NCBI RefSeq assembly: GCF_000716445.1
Contig: NZ_JNWK01000051.1
Coordinates: 5,600 to 69,599, forward strand
DNA: 64,000 nucleotides
Source: Streptomyces wedmorensis
GTDB lineage: Bacteria > Actinomycetota > Actinomycetes > Streptomycetales > Streptomycetaceae
Reading direction: 5' to 3'
Shown here: positions 2,165-52,232 of the stretch, piece by piece
Position numbering within the stretch: position 1 is the first letter of the stretch
Layout of the letters: each line of letters starts with the position of its first letter
Notes under the pieces: model-generated
Databases searched by the model: none
Seen by the model: only the letters and a program-made list of their open reading frames with translations
Told to the model about the DNA's origin: nothing
Position numbers and translations under genes: made by a program

Positions 2165-2560
2165 TCATCGGATGCGTGGGTTTCGGGGTCGGGTGTTCCC
2201 GCGGTAGAGGGGCCAGGAGCGTCGGATCAGGCGGCGGACGGTGATGATGGTGGCGGCCAGGGCGAGGAAGAACTCGATGGCCGCTCTCCGACGTTCGGAG
2301 CAGCGTCGGAGTTTGCCGAAGTTGTTCATCCAGGAGTTCGTGCGCTCTACCACCCAACGGCCGCCGGTCTGGATCGGGGTCTTCGCGCCGCGCGCGGCGA
2401 TGCGCGCGTCGATCCTGCGGGCGGCCAGGTCGTCGTGGACCATGTGGTAGTCGTATCCGGCATCCAGGGCAAGGCGCGGATGCTTGGGCAGGGGCCCGAG
2501 GGTCGGCTCCACGGCGGTGAAACGGTCGAGGGTGGCGGGCAGCAGTGGGCCCCTGTTCAT
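2165..2560 (-). pseudogene. IS5-type transposase C-terminal fragment
   Basis: Only the 3' part of a DDE transposase remains. The fragment contains a second catalytic-Asp region (LALDAGYDYHMVHDD) and the late signature RWVVERTNSWMNNFGKLRR, followed by FFLALAATIITVRRLIRRSW, which is the typical end of IS5-group transposases. The N-terminal half with the first Asp is absent, because the neighbouring GNAT gene ends directly upstream at 2569. The fragment cannot be a working transposase. I could not identify a convincing pair of terminal inverted repeats, so the insertion boundaries are unknown. Confidence 0.75.
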
Positions 2561-2568
2561 CCCCGCCG

Positions 2569-3339
2569 TCAGCGGTTGAGGAAGGAGTAGCTGCGGCCGA
2601 GCTCGGTGAAGCCGCGGCAGGAGTACCACTCGCGCGGCCAGTCGGTCGCGTCCGCGATGAGGAAGAGCTGTGGGATCCCGGCAGCGGCGGCCAACGCCAG
2701 ACCTGTGGCGAGCAGGGTATCTCCGTGGCCCTGCTTACGGTGCGGCACAGCAGTGACGAGGTCCTCCAGCTGAGCCAGCCCGGCGGTTCGGTCGAGGTAG
2801 AGGTCGGCCCAGGCCGCGATCTCCCCGTCCGGTGTCCGGGCAGCCAGGAAGGCTACCTTCTCCGCGCCGCGCAGGCGGGCGGTACGGCGCTCGGTGAGCT
2901 GTCGAGCGAGATCCCCGTCCAAGCCCCAGTCAAGCTGCTGGCGGAACACTGCCGCTCGCAGCTCAGCCAGCTCGACCGGGTGCGCGGCAGGTTCGGGCAG
3001 CGCGCAGCCAGCTGTCTCCCGAGCCAGTATCAGCTCGGTGTCCCGGTCGTAGCCGGCCGCCGCCAGCCCCGGGGTGGCCCGCTCCCCGAGCGCCTCGTCC
3101 AGCACCGTGATCCGATACTGCCGGCGCGGTCCGAGGCCCTGTGCAGCCAGTTCGGGCAGTGCCGCCGGGTCGGCGTCCGAGGCGTGGACGATCAGTTGGT
3201 TGTGCTCCTGGGATTGGGAGAAGTCCGAGTCGTGGACGGCGAAGGCCCCGGGCAGCTCGACGGTCTCAGAGGCCTGGCGGCGGGCGAAGGCGGCGCGGAA
3301 GGCGGTCACGCGCTCAAGCAGATCCGACATCTTCGTCAT
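2569..3339 (-). CDS. GNAT family N-acetyltransferase
   Basis: The 256-residue product resembles acetyl-CoA-dependent N-acetyltransferases. Its C-terminal GNAT fold contains the acetyl-CoA loop VPHRKQGHGDTLL near residues 198-210, followed by an alpha helix and LFLIADATDWPREWYSCRGF, the usual last strand. The N-terminal 100 residues are a variable substrate region. The ATG at 3339 was chosen; the reading frame stays open for another 50 codons upstream, but that part is low-complexity and unlike the family. The substrate is unknown. It abuts the transposase relic on its 3' side and the trypsin-NB-ARC-TPR gene on its 5' side, both on the same strand. Confidence 0.8.
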   Translation of the reverse strand: MTKMSDLLERVTAFRAAFARRQASETVELPGAFAVHDSDFSQSQEHNQLIVHASDADPAALPELAAQGLGPRRQYRITVLDEALGERATPGLAAAGYDRDTELILARETAGCALPEPAAHPVELAELRAAVFRQQLDWGLDGDLARQLTERRTARLRGAEKVAFLAARTPDGEIAAWADLYLDRTAGLAQLEDLVTAVPHRKQGHGDTLLATGLALAAAAGIPQLFLIADATDWPREWYSCRGFTELGRSYSFLNR

Positions 3340-3510: not shown

Positions 3511-6500
3511 CTACTCCGCCTCAGGTCCCGGGTCGATCGCTGACTGCTTCAGGTGGGTGATGTGGTCCAGTGTGGCGAGAGTGTCAGGGTGGTCGGGGCC
3601 GAGGAGGCGCCGGCTGTCGGATGCGACGCGCCAGAGGTGGCCGAGTGCTTCATCGGTGCGACCCACTCGCTGGTAGGAGCCGGCCAGGCCGTAGCGGGCG
3701 AGGATGATGTCGGGATGGTCGACGCCGAGGAGCCGTTCGCAGTCGGCCACCACCGACTCCAGTAGGTCGATGGATTCCTCGGTTCGGCCTGCCTGCTCAT
3801 AGGCTCCGGCCAGGCTGCCGCGGGCGATGACGGTGTCGATGTGGTCGGGGCCGAGTACGCGCTCGCGATCGGGCACCACCTGCTCCAGCAGGGCGACGGC
3901 CTCTTCGATGCGGCCTCCTTGCCGGTACGAGTCGGCCAGGTTGGCGCGGGCGAGGAGGGTGTTGGGGTGGTCGGTGCCGAGCAGGTGCTCGCTGTCGGAC
4001 AGCACTTGCTCCTGCAGTGCCAGCGCCTCCTCCGCCCGGCCTGCTTTCTGGTACAGGCGGGCCAGGTTGTTGCGGGCGGTGAGGGTGCTGGGGTGAAGGG
4101 TGCCGTGCAGCCGCTCGCTGTCGGCGACGGCTTGTTCCTGGAGGCCCAGCGCCTTGTCCGCCTGGTTTCCCTGCTGGTAGGCGCCGGCGAGGTTGGCGCG
4201 AGCGAGGAGTGAGGTGCGGTGGTCGGGGCCGAGGAGCCGTTCGCTGTCGGCTACCAGTTGTTCGAGGAGTGCGGTGGCGTCCTCGGTCCGGGCTCTTTGC
4301 AGGTAGCTGCTGGTCAGGCTGTTCCGGCTGAGGAGGGTGTCGGGGTGGTCACCGCCGAGCAGCCTCTCGCTGTCGGCGACCACGTGCTCCAGTAGCTCGA
4401 TGGCTTCGTCGATCCGGCCTCCCTGGCGGTAGGAGATGGCGAGGCTGGCACGGGAGCCGAGGAGGTGGGGGTGGTCGGCGCCGAGGATGCCTTCGCCGGT
4501 GGTCACCATGCGTTGCCAGTAGGCGGTGGCGCTGCTGATCAGGCCGGCGGCCGAGAGGCTGTCGCCCGCGCGGTGGAGGACCGGGTGCCAGAGCCGGTGG
4601 TCGGTGTGGAGGGCGAGGGCGTCGGTGTTGGTGCGGAGGGTCGCGGCCAGTTCGGGGTGCTGCGGATCGATCTCGGGCCATATGTGGAGGAGGCCGTTCG
4701 CGGCGGCGGTGGCGAGGTGGACGAGGCCGGTTGCGGGGATGGATTCGCGTACGGCGCGGGCGGTGAGGGCGTGGATGCGTACGGCGCGGGGTTCGGCGCG
4801 GCGGTCGTGGGTGATGAGGGCGTAGCGGTGGAGGAGCCGTAGGACGGAGTGGATCTGTCCTGCGGTGACCTGCCGATCGTATGGGGGGTAGTGGCTGAAG
4901 TATTCGAGGAGGGGCGGGCTGGACCAGAACGAGTGGGGGTGGCCGGCGGGGTCGAGGAGGGCGGCCAGGCACAGGGCGGGGCCGGCGAGGTTGGTGGTGT
5001 CGGCCTCTTGCACCGCGTCGAAGGAGAGCAGGAGGGCCACGGTGATGTGTCGGCCGTAGCCCTCGGCGTCGGCCGTGTCGGGCAGTGCGTCGGCCAGGCG
5101 TGTGGCGCGGCTGTTGAAGAGGTCGAGGTATTCGGTGCAGGTGAGTGCTTCGTTGAGCATGTGCGCTGCGGCGAGGCCGAGCGCGAGGGGAAGGTGGCCG
5201 AGGGCTTCGGCGAGGGAGGTGGCCTGGTCGTCGAGGAGGTGCCCCGTGTCGTCGCGGTCGAGGCGTTCGCTCAGGTAGGAGATGGACTCCTCGGGTGTGT
5301 AGGTCCCGATGTCGACGCGGGTACGGCCGCCACCGGTGAGGCGGGCGTCGTTGAGTCGTGTCGTGGCCAGGCTCCAGCCGGTCCCACTGCGGCTGACGGG
5401 CCACCACGTGCCCAGCGTGACGAGGTCGGTGACGTCGTCGAGGACGACCATCCAGCGACGTGATGTCGTGGCCAGCCACGCCAGCAGTGTCCGGGCGTCG
5501 GCTTCCGGATCCTCGCCGGTCGCGCCGGCCAGGTGGAGGTCGGCGGCGGCCCGGGCGTACTGGGTGATCACCTGCTGCGGTTCCGCCGCCGGCGCCCAGA
5601 CCACGATGTCCGTGCCCTGCGCGAGGGCGTCGGTGACACAGGCGGCGGCCAGCTGTGTCTTACCTACTCCCCCGCCGCCGGAGAGCACCTGTGTCAGCAT
5701 CACCGACCCCCCGGTCGCTCGTGCCCGTTCGATCTCCTCCCGCAGGTCGCTGCGCGGCTGGAGCGCGGTGGCGAGCGTGGGCACCTGCCCGACGATCACC
5801 GGCCACCTCGGTTCGGTGGCGCCAGGTGACGCTGCATCGCCGGTGGCGGTCACCGCCTCAGGCACTCCGGCGGTCCCGGCGTGTCCTTTACGGGTGACGA
5901 GTTCGGCGAATCCGGGCGAGTCGAGGGCCTCGTGGATCGGGGCGGCATGCAGGCGCCGCCAGTCCATGGACCGGTTGTCCTCGACCGCCACGCCCACCAG
6001 TCGACCGTGGCAGAAGACGGCCGCTCCGGACGCGCCGGCCCATGGCCGCTCCCCGTCTCGGCTCGCCGCCGGCCAGATCCGACAGTCCAGCACCCAGCCG
6101 GCCGAGGACGTGGAGACCGCGGACAGCTCACCACGCAGAGCCTCGACCTGCGCGGAGCTCCCCGCATCGGCGGCGAAAGCGGGAAATCCGGCACCTGTGT
6201 ACGGGATCTGGCCGGTGCCTTCGGGCAATCCCCAGACCACCGGACCGCCGGTGGTCGCCACGGGTTCGTCGAGCCAGATCAACGCGATGTCCAGGTCATC
6301 CGCGGCGGGGACGCCCTGCTCGGGATCGGGCCAGCACACCTGCGCTCGCCGTTGCTCGACCCGCCCGAAGTGCGGATGCCCGACACGTGCCTGCACGTGC
6401 TCCGCCCAACGGCCCTCGGCCAGAACGACGTGCAGGGCCGTCAGCACCAGCTGCGGCCCTACCAGGTAACCGGACCCGACCCCCGTCGGGTTGTCCGTCT

Positions 6501-6528
6501 GGACCAGTACAAGGCGCTCCGGATTCAT
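3511..6528 (-). CDS. Trypsin-like protease / NB-ARC / TPR protein (STAND NTPase)
   Basis: This 1005-residue protein has three parts. Residues 1-200 form a chymotrypsin-fold serine protease with a complete triad: His33 in TALHVV, Asp80 in DLDIALIW, Ser167 in GASGAAV. Residues about 260-480 form an NB-ARC ATPase with Walker A SGGGGVGKT (283-291), Walker B MVVLDD (360-365), an ATTR sensor (388-391) and a GHLPLAL motif (444-450). From about 690 to the end there are seven or so kinesin-light-chain-type TPRs of 42 residues, each with LLGxDHP. No signal peptide is visible, so it is probably cytosolic. The architecture is that of a STAND switch in which ligand binding to the TPRs would release the protease; the ligand and target are unknown. 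ATG 6528 was chosen because the conserved protease fold begins there; the ORF extends upstream to 6765. Confidence 0.88.
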   Translation of the reverse strand: MNPERLVLVQTDNPTGVGSGYLVGPQLVLTALHVVLAEGRWAEHVQARVGHPHFGRVEQRRAQVCWPDPEQGVPAADDLDIALIWLDEPVATTGGPVVWGLPEGTGQIPYTGAGFPAFAADAGSSAQVEALRGELSAVSTSSAGWVLDCRIWPAASRDGERPWAGASGAAVFCHGRLVGVAVEDNRSMDWRRLHAAPIHEALDSPGFAELVTRKGHAGTAGVPEAVTATGDAASPGATEPRWPVIVGQVPTLATALQPRSDLREEIERARATGGSVMLTQVLSGGGGVGKTQLAAACVTDALAQGTDIVVWAPAAEPQQVITQYARAAADLHLAGATGEDPEADARTLLAWLATTSRRWMVVLDDVTDLVTLGTWWPVSRSGTGWSLATTRLNDARLTGGGRTRVDIGTYTPEESISYLSERLDRDDTGHLLDDQATSLAEALGHLPLALGLAAAHMLNEALTCTEYLDLFNSRATRLADALPDTADAEGYGRHITVALLLSFDAVQEADTTNLAGPALCLAALLDPAGHPHSFWSSPPLLEYFSHYPPYDRQVTAGQIHSVLRLLHRYALITHDRRAEPRAVRIHALTARAVRESIPATGLVHLATAAANGLLHIWPEIDPQHPELAATLRTNTDALALHTDHRLWHPVLHRAGDSLSAAGLISSATAYWQRMVTTGEGILGADHPHLLGSRASLAISYRQGGRIDEAIELLEHVVADSERLLGGDHPDTLLSRNSLTSSYLQRARTEDATALLEQLVADSERLLGPDHRTSLLARANLAGAYQQGNQADKALGLQEQAVADSERLHGTLHPSTLTARNNLARLYQKAGRAEEALALQEQVLSDSEHLLGTDHPNTLLARANLADSYRQGGRIEEAVALLEQVVPDRERVLGPDHIDTVIARGSLAGAYEQAGRTEESIDLLESVVADCERLLGVDHPDIILARYGLAGSYQRVGRTDEALGHLWRVASDSRRLLGPDHPDTLATLDHITHLKQSAIDPGPEAE

Positions 6529-6970
6529 TTCGCCGCGTACACCCCTGCCCCGTCTGCTGTGGTGCCTTTGTCGTCGACACGCCCATGTCCACGCGTACCC
6601 CTGATGCGCAGGCCCCCGTGAGCGGTGGCACCTCATCTTCAGCCTGCCCCGATGGAACAACTCCCCAGGCTGGTTCAGCGTTCCGGCTTCGCCCGTCGCC
6701 GCGTCAAGTGAGCGCTGTGGCTCCGGTGCGCTCTGCTGCTGCACGGAGTCATGTTGTTGTCGCACGGCATGATCAGCTGTGGGCTATGTTGTGAGGATGA
6801 CTACCGGGACGGCGTCGCGCCACACACGGATTGGTGACCCGGTGCTCTCCTGAGTGCCGTCAGGGCCGGTGCGGGCCCGCTGTTCGATCGAGGATGCCGC
6901 GCTGCTGCGCGGGCTCCGCCTCCGTCGTGTTGATCAAAGGCTCCACACATCAACCACGACAGGAGAGTTC
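6529..6970. other. Intergenic region between divergent genes
   Basis: These 442 bases separate the leftward STAND gene from the rightward dienelactone hydrolase gene. The frame of the STAND gene stays open to 6765 but without family-like sequence. An 18-codon ATG ORF lies at 6797-6853 with no properly spaced ribosome site. I see no terminator, operator or RNA gene here. Promoters for both flanking genes must lie in this stretch, but no convincing -35/-10 pair was found. Confidence 0.6.
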
Positions 6971-49145: not shown

Positions 49146-49544
49146 TCAGTTCGCCGGGGGGAGGAGGTGCCCGAGCGGGCCGAGATCGAGGTTGAGGTCT
49201 TCGAGGCTGTAGCCGTGCTCGGCACACAGGTCGGTCATGCGGTCGTGCAGGGCGAGGAGAGTCGCTCCGAGTTCCTCTTCCTGTGCGTCGGTGAGGTCGC
49301 CCGCGTCGACCCGGCGCAAGGCCTGGCGTTCGATGAGCTGGCGCAGGAGCTCGACGATGGTGAGGACGAGCTTGAGGAGGTCTTCGCCGACGGTCTCGGG
49401 GTCGGTGCGCATGCGGTGGGCCGGGGGCCGCGTGACGCCGGGTGTTTCCGGCGGCGCCTGAAGCAGCCGGAAGGCGTGTGCGAGGGGGGCTCCGGGCGCT
49501 TCGAGGTCGGGGCGCGGCTCTCGCGGGGCATGATCGCCGGTCAT
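49146..49544 (-). CDS. gvpK: Gas vesicle protein GvpK
   Basis: The 132-residue protein contains the conserved GvpK helices: RMRTDPETVGEDLLKLVLTI, then VELLRQLIERQALRRVDAGD, and at the C-terminus SLEDLNLDLGPLGHLLPP. GvpK is a minor assembly component of gas vesicles. The N-terminal 40 residues are Pro-rich and variable. It is the last gene of the operon; its ATG overlaps the gvpS stop (4 bp). Confidence 0.93.
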   Translation of the reverse strand: MTGDHAPREPRPDLEAPGAPLAHAFRLLQAPPETPGVTRPPAHRMRTDPETVGEDLLKLVLTIVELLRQLIERQALRRVDAGDLTDAQEEELGATLLALHDRMTDLCAEHGYSLEDLNLDLGPLGHLLPPAN

Positions 49545-49750
49545 GGCCGGCCCCCGAGAGCGAAGGGGGCGTCGGAGGCCGTGACGGAGGTGATGAGGGC
49601 ACGCAGGGAGATGCGTACGAGGTCGATGTCGGCGATGGACAGGACAACGTCACCGGTGATGACGACGCCACCGGCCAGGAGCCGGTCGAGGAGGTCGACG
49701 AGGGCGACCTGCCGGTCGGGCAGGGGCTCGTGTCGTTCGGTGGGGGTCAT
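49541..49750 (-). CDS. gvpS: GvpA/J-like gas vesicle protein (GvpS)
   Basis: The 69-residue product is a small GvpA-fold protein: LVDLLDRLLAGGVVITGDVV and LSIADIDLVRISLRALITSV are the two helices and hairpin of the gas vesicle shell fold, ending DAPFALGGRP. In Streptomyces-type clusters this position is called gvpS. ATG 49750 overlaps the gvpL stop (4 bp). It probably forms a minor shell or tip component. Confidence 0.85.
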   Translation of the reverse strand: MTPTERHEPLPDRQVALVDLLDRLLAGGVVITGDVVLSIADIDLVRISLRALITSVTASDAPFALGGRP

Positions 49751-50730
49751 GATCGTGCGCCAGGGGCGTCTGTATCTGCGCCCGCGTCCGCGTCGGCACC
49801 TGTACCTGCGCCCGCGTCTGTATCTGTACCTGCGCCGCCGTCCGTACCTGTGCCTGCGTCCGGGTCCGGGTCTGTATCTGCATCCGCGCCTGCGCCTGCG
49901 TCCGCGCCCGGGTCTGTCGACGCGGTCGGTGGCATCGCGAAGGAGTACGGCGCCCAGGGGCCGGTGACCTCGATCCGGATGCCAGGCAGATCCTGGCCGG
50001 CCTGGTCGAGGGCGGCGCGGAAGGCCTCGGCCTCGTCGTCGGGTACGAGATGGGCGTCGTTGAGGATGTTCTCGCCGTTCTCGCTGCGGGTGAGCGGCCC
50101 GGTCTGCACGGGGTGGCGGACGGTGTGGGTGGCGTGCCGGGCCGCTATGGCGGCGATCCGGTCCGCTGCTTGGCCGGCTTGCAGGTAGCGGTCCTCGCGG
50201 GCGTGGTGCTGGGCTCGGCGGGCTTGCAGGTAGGCCTTCCCGGGACTGGGCGCGGCGGCGGGGGCGGATGAGGTGGGCTGGGTGTCGGCGGAGGCGTCGG
50301 CTGACGCCTTGTCGCCGGCGATGTAGACCTTGACTCCGTATTCGGTGTGGTGGGCGAGGAGGGCCAGCCGGGCTGCGAAGGTGTCCTGCTGTTCGCGCAG
50401 GGCTTCCAGGGCTCGGTCGCCGTCCTGGTAGAGGGTGGCCAGCCGCAGCGGCAGGACGGTCGCGTGTTCCGTGAGGAACTGGATGACGTGGTGGTGGGCG
50501 CGGGCGGTGTCCTCGAGCCAGTCGAGGTCTTCGAAGCGGGATCTGAGGGCCTCCTCGGCCCACTGGCCGGCGGGGACCTGGCTGATGACGAAGGCCGGGC
50601 CGGCGTCGGCGGGGGGCAGGAGGGTCACCGGTGTGTCGCCGACGCCGTGTACGCCGGCCAGGCGCCCGCGGAGCTCCTGGGTGGGGAGGGTCACGGCGTA
50701 GACGTAGATGAGACTCGGCTCGCCGTTCAC
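49747..50730 (-). CDS. gvpL: Gas vesicle protein GvpL (GvpF/L family) with Asp-rich tail
   Basis: The 327-residue protein has a GvpF/L core: [14 protein letters not shown] at the start, [20 protein letters not shown], and [10 protein letters not shown] in the middle, with [18 protein letters not shown] (about residues 251-268) at the end, as in GvpF. After that it has a 60-residue tail of Asp, Ala, Gly and Thr ([20 protein letters not shown] type), which GvpF lacks. It overlaps both gvpS and gvpJ by 4 bp. GTG 50730 is the start. GvpL helps assemble or nucleate vesicles. Confidence 0.93.
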
Positions 50731-51203
50731 GGTTCGGGCCTTTCGCGCTTCGAGCCGCCGGACCGGGTCGCGCCGCGTCGCTCCGGGTCCTCCTCGGCTT
50801 GGCCGGGCGGGGTCGCGCCGTGTCGCTCCGGGCTGTCCTCGGCTCGGCCGGGCAGGACGGCTTCCGGCCGGTCGCGGCGCAGGGCGTCCAGTTCGGCGCG
50901 CAGGCGGCGGTTCTCTTCCGCCAGGGGGTCTCCGCTGTGGCGGGAGGACAGCGACGGGTCGTACTCCCACCAGTCGATGCCCATCTCCTTGGCCTTGTCC
51001 ACGGAGGCGATCAGGATTCGCAGTTTGATGGTCAGCAGCTCGATGTCGAGGAGGTTGATGCGGATGTCGCCGACGATCACGATGCCCTTGTCCAGGACGC
51101 GTTCGAGGATGTCGGCCAGGCTGGCCGACGAGGACGGCGGGTACGAGGCCGGCATCGCCCGGGACGGCACGGGGGCGATCCGGTGGGCAAGGGGGTCGGT
51201 CAC
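50727..51203 (-). CDS. gvpJ: Gas vesicle protein GvpJ
   Basis: The 158-residue protein has a GvpA-like core at about residues 27-75: LADILERVLDKGIVIVGDIR and INLLDIELLTIKLRILIASV, then DKAKEMGIDWWEYDPSL. A C-terminal arm of 80 charged residues contains two imperfect repeats (DSPERHGATPPG and DPERRGATRSG). GvpJ is a tip or nucleation protein. ATG 51203 overlaps the gvpG stop by 4 bp. Confidence 0.9.
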   Translation of the reverse strand: MTDPLAHRIAPVPSRAMPASYPPSSSASLADILERVLDKGIVIVGDIRINLLDIELLTIKLRILIASVDKAKEMGIDWWEYDPSLSSRHSGDPLAEENRRLRAELDALRRDRPEAVLPGRAEDSPERHGATPPGQAEEDPERRGATRSGGSKRERPEP

Positions 51204-51472
51204 GGTGTCTGGCCTCCCGGGTCACGGCCGGCGTCCTGCCGGAACTGGGCGATCTCGTCGAGACGGTCGAGGAGTTCGTCCTCCTGCCGGTCGAAGGCGG
51301 CCTGGTCGATCTCCCCGTCCTGGAGCATGCGTTCGAGCTCGGCCAGGGCGGCGTAGACGGGTGCGGGGTCGTAGTACTCGTCGGTGGCCTCGTCCAGGGC
51401 GCGCTGCGCAGCCCAGACGGCGAGCCGCATGGGCAGCAGCGGCGCGGTCAGCAGTTGGCTCAGCATCCCCAT
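51200..51472 (-). CDS. gvpG: Gas vesicle protein GvpG
   Basis: The 90-residue protein matches GvpG: LSQLLTAPLLPMRLAVWAAQ at the start, YYDPAPVYAALAELERMLQD in the middle and DEIDQAAF-like helices near the end. It is a small helical assembly protein. The spacer to gvpF is 49 bp, the longest gap in the operon, with no clear terminator. Confidence 0.93.
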   Translation of the reverse strand: MGMLSQLLTAPLLPMRLAVWAAQRALDEATDEYYDPAPVYAALAELERMLQDGEIDQAAFDRQEDELLDRLDEIAQFRQDAGRDPGGQTP

Positions 51473-51521
51473 AGCTCCTCCCTTTGCGATTCCCGGGCCT
51501 GGCCCGACGACGTGGGCCCGG

Positions 51522-52232
51522 CTACACGAAGCTGTAGGGGGGCAGCGGTCCGCTGAAGCGGAAGTGGATGCCTTCGACCTCCTCGGCCAGGCGGGCCTCC
51601 GCTTTCAGGAAGGCGTCCCTGCTGTCGTCCTGGACCAGGAGGGAGATGCTGAGGATGTCGTCGCCGGCGGGAGGGTGGACACGGTGGTCCTCGGCGAGGG
51701 GGACCAGCGACTGCACCAGTCCGGCGGCCAGGCCTTCCTGTCTCTCCTGTACTTCACCGGCGACGATCTCCCCCAACTCCAGTGGCAGCCGTGGGTCGGC
51801 GTCGCCCTCCCGGATCCGGTCGTTGAGCAGCCGTGCCCGGTCCGAGTCGTGGAGGATCTCCCGTAGGAGGGCGTCCTCGTCCTGCGAGGCCTTCACGTGG
51901 TACTCGGCGCAGCCGCGCAGCCGCTCCAGCGCGTCCAGGTAACCGTCCGCACGCTCCTGGAGCACCTGGGTGACCGCCTGGTCGTCGGGGGCCGTGTAGC
52001 CGAACTGCAGGGGAAGAATCGTTCCATCGCTCATGAGCCGGTCCTGGACCGCTTGGTGGGCGGTCAGGTCTCGGCGCTTGGGCCGGATCTCCTCGTCGAT
52101 GTCCGAGACGACCGCGCGCAGCTCCCCGGCGGTGATGGCGCGCACGGGAGCCGGCTCGGCTCCGACACCGTTGAGCCCTTCCAGGCGGCACGGGTGCGCG
52201 GCAGTGGTGATGGAGTACACGTAGACAGGCAT
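51522..52232 (-). CDS. gvpF: Gas vesicle protein GvpF
   Basis: The 236-residue protein has all GvpF features: MPVYVYSITTAAHP at the N-terminus, GTILPLQFGYTAPDDQAVTQ in the middle, and FRFSGPLPPYSFV at the C-terminus. GvpF binds GvpA before assembly. The gap to gvpA is 3 bp, indicating translational coupling. Confidence 0.95.
   Translation of the reverse strand: MPVYVYSITTAAHPCRLEGLNGVGAEPAPVRAITAGELRAVVSDIDEEIRPKRRDLTAHQAVQDRLMSDGTILPLQFGYTAPDDQAVTQVLQERADGYLDALERLRGCAEYHVKASQDEDALLREILHDSDRARLLNDRIREGDADPRLPLELGEIVAGEVQERQEGLAAGLVQSLVPLAEDHRVHPPAGDDILSISLLVQDDSRDAFLKAEARLAEEVEGIHFRFSGPLPPYSFV

Follow-up and report, generated by a model that had tools for sequence, protein, structure and literature searches.

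In AVAST type 1, as described in passages of PMC12799240, the trypsin-like domain of Avs1b cleaves a pro-nuclease in its loops once infection has been sensed. Passages of the eLife 2020 paper on the VMAP systems (PMC7159879) state that Trypco1 or Trypco2 often accompanies trypsin-like peptidases, and part of PMC10907252 terms both of these adapter domains; the passages of the two papers contain no experiment on Trypco2. Here we analysed a gene of Streptomyces wedmorensis at positions 3511 to 6528, minus strand, of a 64,000-nucleotide stretch of contig NZ_JNWK01000051.1 (the whole stretch is called the window throughout), which encodes a trypsin-like domain, an AP-ATPase (NB-ARC) switch region and an array of tetratricopeptide repeats (TPRs). 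With moderate confidence, we read its product as a bacterial NLR-like STAND switch in which the trypsin-like domain would act as effector and which has probably been orphaned from a cassette with Trypco2, a case that matters for how bacterial NLR-like proteins restrain a fused protease. The literature searches, which covered listings, abstracts and passages, turned up no experimental study of a trypsin-AP-ATPase-TPR protein.

The window protein resembles Avs1b in carrying an N-terminal trypsin-like domain on a STAND NTPase, and Avs1b is its sole PADLOC match (PDLC02159, 19.2 bits). This match spans residues 15-180, the protease alone, and stops at profile position 163 of 1924, leaving the NTPase and the sensor unmatched by the profile. 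Furthermore, the six Pfam-scanned neighbours of the window gene include no metallo-beta-lactamase nuclease such as the pro-nuclease Avs1a, and the usual partner of the window-type trypsin is Trypco2, in contrast to Avs1a for Avs1b. Judged by these comparisons, Avs1b is a functional precedent and not the family of the window protein. The trypsin-VMAP ternary conflict systems, as presented in passages of PMC7159879, have a homologous trypsin and the same Trypco2 neighbour, yet they carry VMAP-C where the window protein has its AP-ATPase-TPR part, and the window copy is without an adjacent Trypco2. The trypsin-less relatives of the window protein share paired motifs with an upstream effector gene in the manner of the BASS amyloid-motif NLRs (part of PMC8086366), whereas the window effector is fused directly and matches no motif pattern (our own two patterns, not the BASS1-10 profiles). 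APAF-1 and the plant NB-ARC receptors differ from the window protein in that the latter has a TPR sensor and a trypsin-like rather than a caspase-recruiting N-terminus.

Trypco2 and the trypsin gene

The sole neighbour common to more than two of eleven trypsin loci was a small protein adjoining the trypsin gene, which was Trypco2 by Pfam in the five tested. Using five Trypco2 queries, tblastn placed Trypco2 beside the trypsin gene in 25 out of 25 other trypsin loci, five of which had supplied the queries and some of which share a genome (L077-L079 come from the window genome, L048 and L051 from S. tauricus). It lies on the same strand and within about 250 bp upstream in 24 of these loci, and is adjacent but divergent in L048, while none of the 23 loci without a trypsin domain has it (tblastn). 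At two loci (L077 and L049) the Trypco2 stop is followed by one base and then the GTG start of the trypsin gene, suggesting translational coupling. Neither the window nor the contig's first 20 kb gave a tblastn match to Trypco2 at 1e-3, and the window copy is the sole locus without it among 26 trypsin loci. The sequence-only reading had held that no partner lies next to the gene, which is true of this copy and makes it the exception among the loci examined. By this comparison, the window gene is an orphan of a two-gene trypsin-Trypco2 cassette. The consistent pairing, together with one natural exception, would offer a direct test of the role of Trypco2: should Trypco2 serve as inhibitor, chaperone or adapter, the orphan would have to use one from another locus, have a different protease or be non-functional.

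In the window genome, Trypco2 genes are confined to three contigs: C17, which bears a full-length paralogue of the window protein (L077, 64% identity); C18, with a trypsin-VMAP gene; and C81, where the trypsin-NB-ARC-TPR paralogue (L078) is broken by in-frame stops and Trypco2 itself is apparently damaged (30.9 bits, positions 1-58). Most likely, the window copy borrows the Trypco2 of the C17 paralogue or works with altered regulation. An orphan relic, silent or decaying without its Trypco2 and doing nothing today, appears unlikely to us. The absence of Trypco2 here alone, the state of the C81 pair and the lack of a promoter-like match upstream would fit such a relic, but the window gene keeps 1005 open codons with intact triad and Walker motifs, and its close homologues P0003 (99% identity; it may be the window protein's own cluster), P0002 (95%) and P0004 (83%) are long open proteins.

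In the mechanism that we propose, a ligand would bind the TPRs, whereupon the NTPase would exchange its nucleotide and oligomerise. Oligomerisation would bring the trypsin domains together for cleavage of a cellular or self target, and the outcome would be defence or programmed shutdown of a hyphal compartment. Trypco2 would restrain, fold or serve the protease. Its structure prediction was poor (predicted local distance difference test score, pLDDT, 57.9). The C-terminus of Trypco2 has W followed by D/E at or near the end in 14 of 20 intact copies, or 16 of 20 if WG and WN are counted, the two broken copies at L050 and L078 being excluded. By eye, the TGG-GAG codons at the L077 and L049 junctions resemble a Shine-Dalgarno sequence of the next gene, and because the same codons may also serve in ribosome binding for the trypsin gene we claim no peptide function for the tail. 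In most Trypco2 proteins, those encoded at L049:9616-9999 and L077:8115-8690 among them, the W-D/E tail follows a variable linker.

Domain architecture and conserved residues

The window protein is encoded by a single open reading frame (ORF) running from 6528 to 3511 on the minus strand, with an ATG start and 1005 codons plus stop. An alternative in-frame GTG start at 6765 would lengthen it; the start at 6528 is favoured because relatives start at equivalent residues (MDP, VDP, MDA, MEA and similar), and the codon-position composition is also in its favour. Its features are given below, with residue counts from a conservation alignment of 76 rows, the window protein included, of which 59 bear the trypsin domain.

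3511..6528, minus strand: trypsin-AP-ATPase(NB-ARC)-TPR protein, 1005 aa (ORF, Pfam, model)
5824..6528, minus strand: trypsin-like domain, residues 1-235 (Pfam PF00089, strands of the AlphaFold2 (AF2) model, PADLOC Avs1b match)
6430..6432, minus strand: His33 codon of the triad; H in 58 of 59 domain-bearing rows, a gap in one
6289..6291, minus strand: Asp80 codon of the triad; D in 59 of 59
6028..6030, minus strand: Ser167 codon of the triad (GASG); S in 59 of 59
4609..5823, minus strand: AP-ATPase/NB-ARC switch region, residues 236-640
5656..5679, minus strand: Walker A GGGGVGKT with Lys290; K in 76 of 76
5434..5448, minus strand: Walker B VVLDD, residues 361-365; D364 in 76 of 76
5356..5367, minus strand: ATTR sensor-type motif, residues 388-391; R391 in 76 of 76
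3604..4485, minus strand: seven TPR units of 42 aa, residues 682-975 (seven PF13374 stretches, model helices)
3514..3603, minus strand: capping helix and C-terminal tail, residues 976-1005 (sequence, model)
6529..6970: 442-bp gap to a divergent hydrolase gene, the site of Trypco2 in relatives; no Trypco2 match at 1e-3

Pfam identified Trypsin (PF00089, 4.1e-5, 23.9 bits, cut-off 20.6), NB-ARC (PF00931, 4e-9, 36.5 bits, cut-off 23.5) and TPR_10 (PF13374, 4.2e-69, seven stretches), and the nucleotide-binding domain is followed by helical and winged-helix parts in an APAF-1-like arrangement. Structural comparison of the AF2 model of the whole protein, in which the TPRs form a C-terminal superhelix, recovered APAF-1 and a crystallised STAND-TPR protein, the list of matches being filled by the TPR and NTPase parts. 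A sequence search with the trypsin domain alone against solved structures (E 0.1) was negative. The assignment of the trypsin fold is accordingly based on Pfam, on the triad and on the strands of the model, and not on a structural match. The trypsin-NB-ARC-TPR architecture described in the sequence-only reading is confirmed: triad, Walker A, Walker B and ATTR motif lie where it had placed them, and its "seven or so" repeats are exactly seven units and a cap by Pfam and by unit-by-unit reading. Lys290, Asp364 and Arg391 are joined by His586 as positions with no variation across the 76 aligned rows.

These residues bear on a further alternative, a STAND regulator of the MalT/AfsR type, acting in development or metabolism, in which the trypsin-like domain would be a binding module. 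We consider it improbable, as Pfam finds no DNA-binding domain, the full catalytic triad is kept in 58 of 59 rows and few genomes have the gene. Six residues ahead of the catalytic Ser, Arg161 (codon 6046-6048) is Arg in 54 of 59 aligned rows. If this position is that of the S1 pocket, a preference for acidic residues could follow.

Exchange of the N-terminal domain and variation of the sensor

In many of the listed relatives that share the NTPase and TPRs without the trypsin domain, the N-terminus is short and frequently bears a recurrent glycine-rich motif, and in 9 of 21 trypsin-less loci the motif is also present in the gene directly upstream of the receptor. The upstream genes match one pattern in L096, L097 and L109 and the other in L110 to L115, and carry the motif twice in eight of the nine loci (once by pattern in L110). 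The receptor N-terminus matches by pattern in six (L109, L110, L111, L112, L113 and L115) and by eye in three (L096, L097 and L114), while L099 is similar as judged by eye alone. Neither pattern occurs elsewhere in the 28 loci scanned, including seven trypsin loci with that of the window, and neither matches the window protein or its locus (L072). Both patterns were composed after several sequences had been seen, so that the counts are a description and not a blind test. In pairwise motif scoring, the observed score was attained in no more than 3 of 200 shuffles for each of L096, L109, L112, L113 and L114. A match at L116 (3 of 200 shuffles) was not counted, being of low complexity.

Since the N-terminus of the trypsin-less relatives and the upstream effector gene carry a common motif, the trypsin domain, on this sequence comparison, is the occupant of an exchangeable slot. 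This exchange argues for the trypsin domains as outputs rather than sensors and, together with the Trypco2 pairing comparison, supports the earlier view of the protease as effector, an interpretation that overall holds in part.

The upstream proteins have two apparent membrane helices by eye (e.g. L096, without a Pfam match) or are alpha/beta hydrolases (L109). Small genes of the former kind, with two C-terminal motif copies, lie at L096:8750-9217, L097:8767-9204 and L111:8637-9128 and in L113 and L114. The alpha/beta hydrolase gene at L109:8288-9361 has two copies and the NTPase-TPR receptor downstream has one. The arrangement of two effector copies and one receptor copy, a split effector-receptor pair, resembles the fungal HET-S/NWD2 pair. 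The NTPase-TPR relatives at L100:8903-11626 and L103:8290-11049 share a similar N-terminus of about 170 aa, a candidate further effector, with no Pfam match for the L100 stretch.

The trypsin domain itself is found on several chassis. It is homologous in all 25 other trypsin loci (tblastn E 7e-26 to 4e-101), and a whole-protein Pfam scan, which left out L049, L050, L077, L078, L156 and L157, found VMAP-C in five of the 25 (L079, L088, L090, L092 and L094) and not in the window protein (P0001). L080 encodes a different NB-ARC-TPR protein and L086 has TPRs alone; L085, L087 and L093 gave AAA or nSTAND matches under the Pfam cut-offs and nothing else, L082, L089 and L091 have trypsin and no further Pfam domain, and L095 and L051 had no Pfam match at the threshold used. 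Tentatively, and at less than even odds in our judgement, Trypco2 and trypsin could form a portable effector-control cassette traded among AP-ATPase-TPR, VMAP and other STAND chassis, from which the window receptor would be uncoupled. Such trading would be akin to that of the nuclease-protease pair among AVAST, Hachiman and Lamassu, and the uncoupled receptor would either use Trypco2 in trans across paralogues, as a small NLR network, or be independent of it.

At the other end of the protein, the variation of the sensor is seen more readily in the number of entire units than in substitutions within the groove. With a profile derived from the window protein's own repeats, 62 of 66 proteins were found to have between 2 and 16 TPR units; the other four gave none and are probably partial records. 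P0002 has 10 units compared with 7 in the window protein, a difference of 126 aa or three whole units. Mean identity between units is 52% in the window protein, against a family median of 69% and maximum of 94%. Median identity to the window protein is 53% in the TPRs compared with 66% and 66% in the other domains (n=45, without P0003), which we attribute in part to the way gained and lost units align. Changes fell in the groove, whose positions we assigned from the general TPR numbering, in 0 of 4 cases for P0003, 1 of 14 for P0002 and 7 of 63 for P0004 (expected 11.9%), and diversifying selection on the groove is unsupported. Elsewhere in the window genome, L073:11845-14982 (contig C12) is a TPR-rich frame that runs off the contig end and has 16 TPR_10 stretches.

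Distribution, neighbourhood and defence context

By sequence search, the family is large, patchy and mostly from Streptomyces. A protein search found 2430 proteins at E < 0.001 among 7991 scored candidates; among the best 120 listed, those named by organism are all actinobacterial, mostly Streptomyces, the closest being from Streptomyces sp. SS (95%). Of these 120, 65 have alignments that start ahead of residue 60 and therefore include the trypsin domain, five begin inside it (residues 64-108) and 50 begin past residue 200. A trypsin-domain relative (E < 1e-25) occurs in at least 17 of 392 Streptomyces genomes and in at least 2 of 150 genomes of the nearest-relative set, the window genome counted in both; these are lower bounds, as at most 7 or 19 candidates were scored per genome. 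A scan of the genome contigs gave at least four loci, and a second genus search run from a different centre added no locus. Relatives occur in 64 plasmid records, four of which, from S. clavuligerus (three) and S. collinus pSCO1, cover at least 80% of residues 1-640, while no relative of this part turned up in phage and viral collections (94 pattern matches, none confirmed).

Many relatives bear the name FxsT, and the window protein scores 350 bits against NF040586 (cut-off 300), which would make it a component of an FxSxx-COOH peptide system. We hold this to be very improbable: the best FxsB score in the window genome is 93 bits against a cut-off of 370, and on another contig; and the listed stretch around a plasmid copy named fxsT has no Fxs-named neighbour, several genes there being hypothetical. 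A search for the FxsA precursor gave no match, but its control was silent too. We regard the FxsT name as an over-extension.

The six neighbours of the window gene are, by Pfam, AraC, a transposase remnant, GNAT, a hydrolase, an RNB exonuclease and TetR. A GNAT-type protein and the transposase remnant lie downstream on the same strand, and upstream lies the divergent dienelactone hydrolase with the RNB exonuclease beyond. The remnant, of DDE type, occupies window positions 2165-2629, flanked by the AraC-type and GNAT genes on the downstream side of the receptor gene. The 442-bp segment ahead of the gene has a single occurrence in the genome. The RNB exonuclease has an 85% relative in genome G004, and no other called gene of the region was matched there or in two further genomes (1e-8); a site of gain or loss was unreadable because only this exonuclease had a counterpart in G004.

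Several results weigh against an NLR-like switch with a protease effector. No known defence gene is among the six Pfam-scanned neighbours, and besides Trypco2 no gene was common to more than two of the eleven trypsin loci, which leaves no substrate candidate. The TPR groove is not enriched for change among P0002, P0003 and P0004, and the upstream 442 bp give no sigma-70-like promoter match, although Streptomyces promoters often deviate from this pattern. Patchiness figures rest on searches that scored up to 7 candidates per genome, and the shuffle statistic is weak for five of the ten motif loci (of 200 shuffles, 12 for L097, 23 for L110, 23 for L115, 123 for L111 and 135 for L099, the last two partly since the receptor stretch supplied was shortened).

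A role of the NLR-like switch in defence is plausible. No nuclease gene recurs beside the eleven trypsin loci. At L049, a relative with Trypco2, whose receptor frame is interrupted after 675 codons, lies about 3 kb from type I-E Cas8e, Cas7, Cas5 and Cas6 genes. Among ten neighbour genes, chosen by hand and without controlled enrichment, PADLOC matched the four L049 cas genes and gave partial matches for an L083 gene (MkoC, 222 bits) and an L081 gene (SspH, 66.6 bits, and mad8, 33.4 bits), with no match for the four from L080, L084, L048 and L050. Farther along the window, positions 49146-52232 hold a gas vesicle cluster with GvpK, GvpF/L twice and the Gas_vesicle family.

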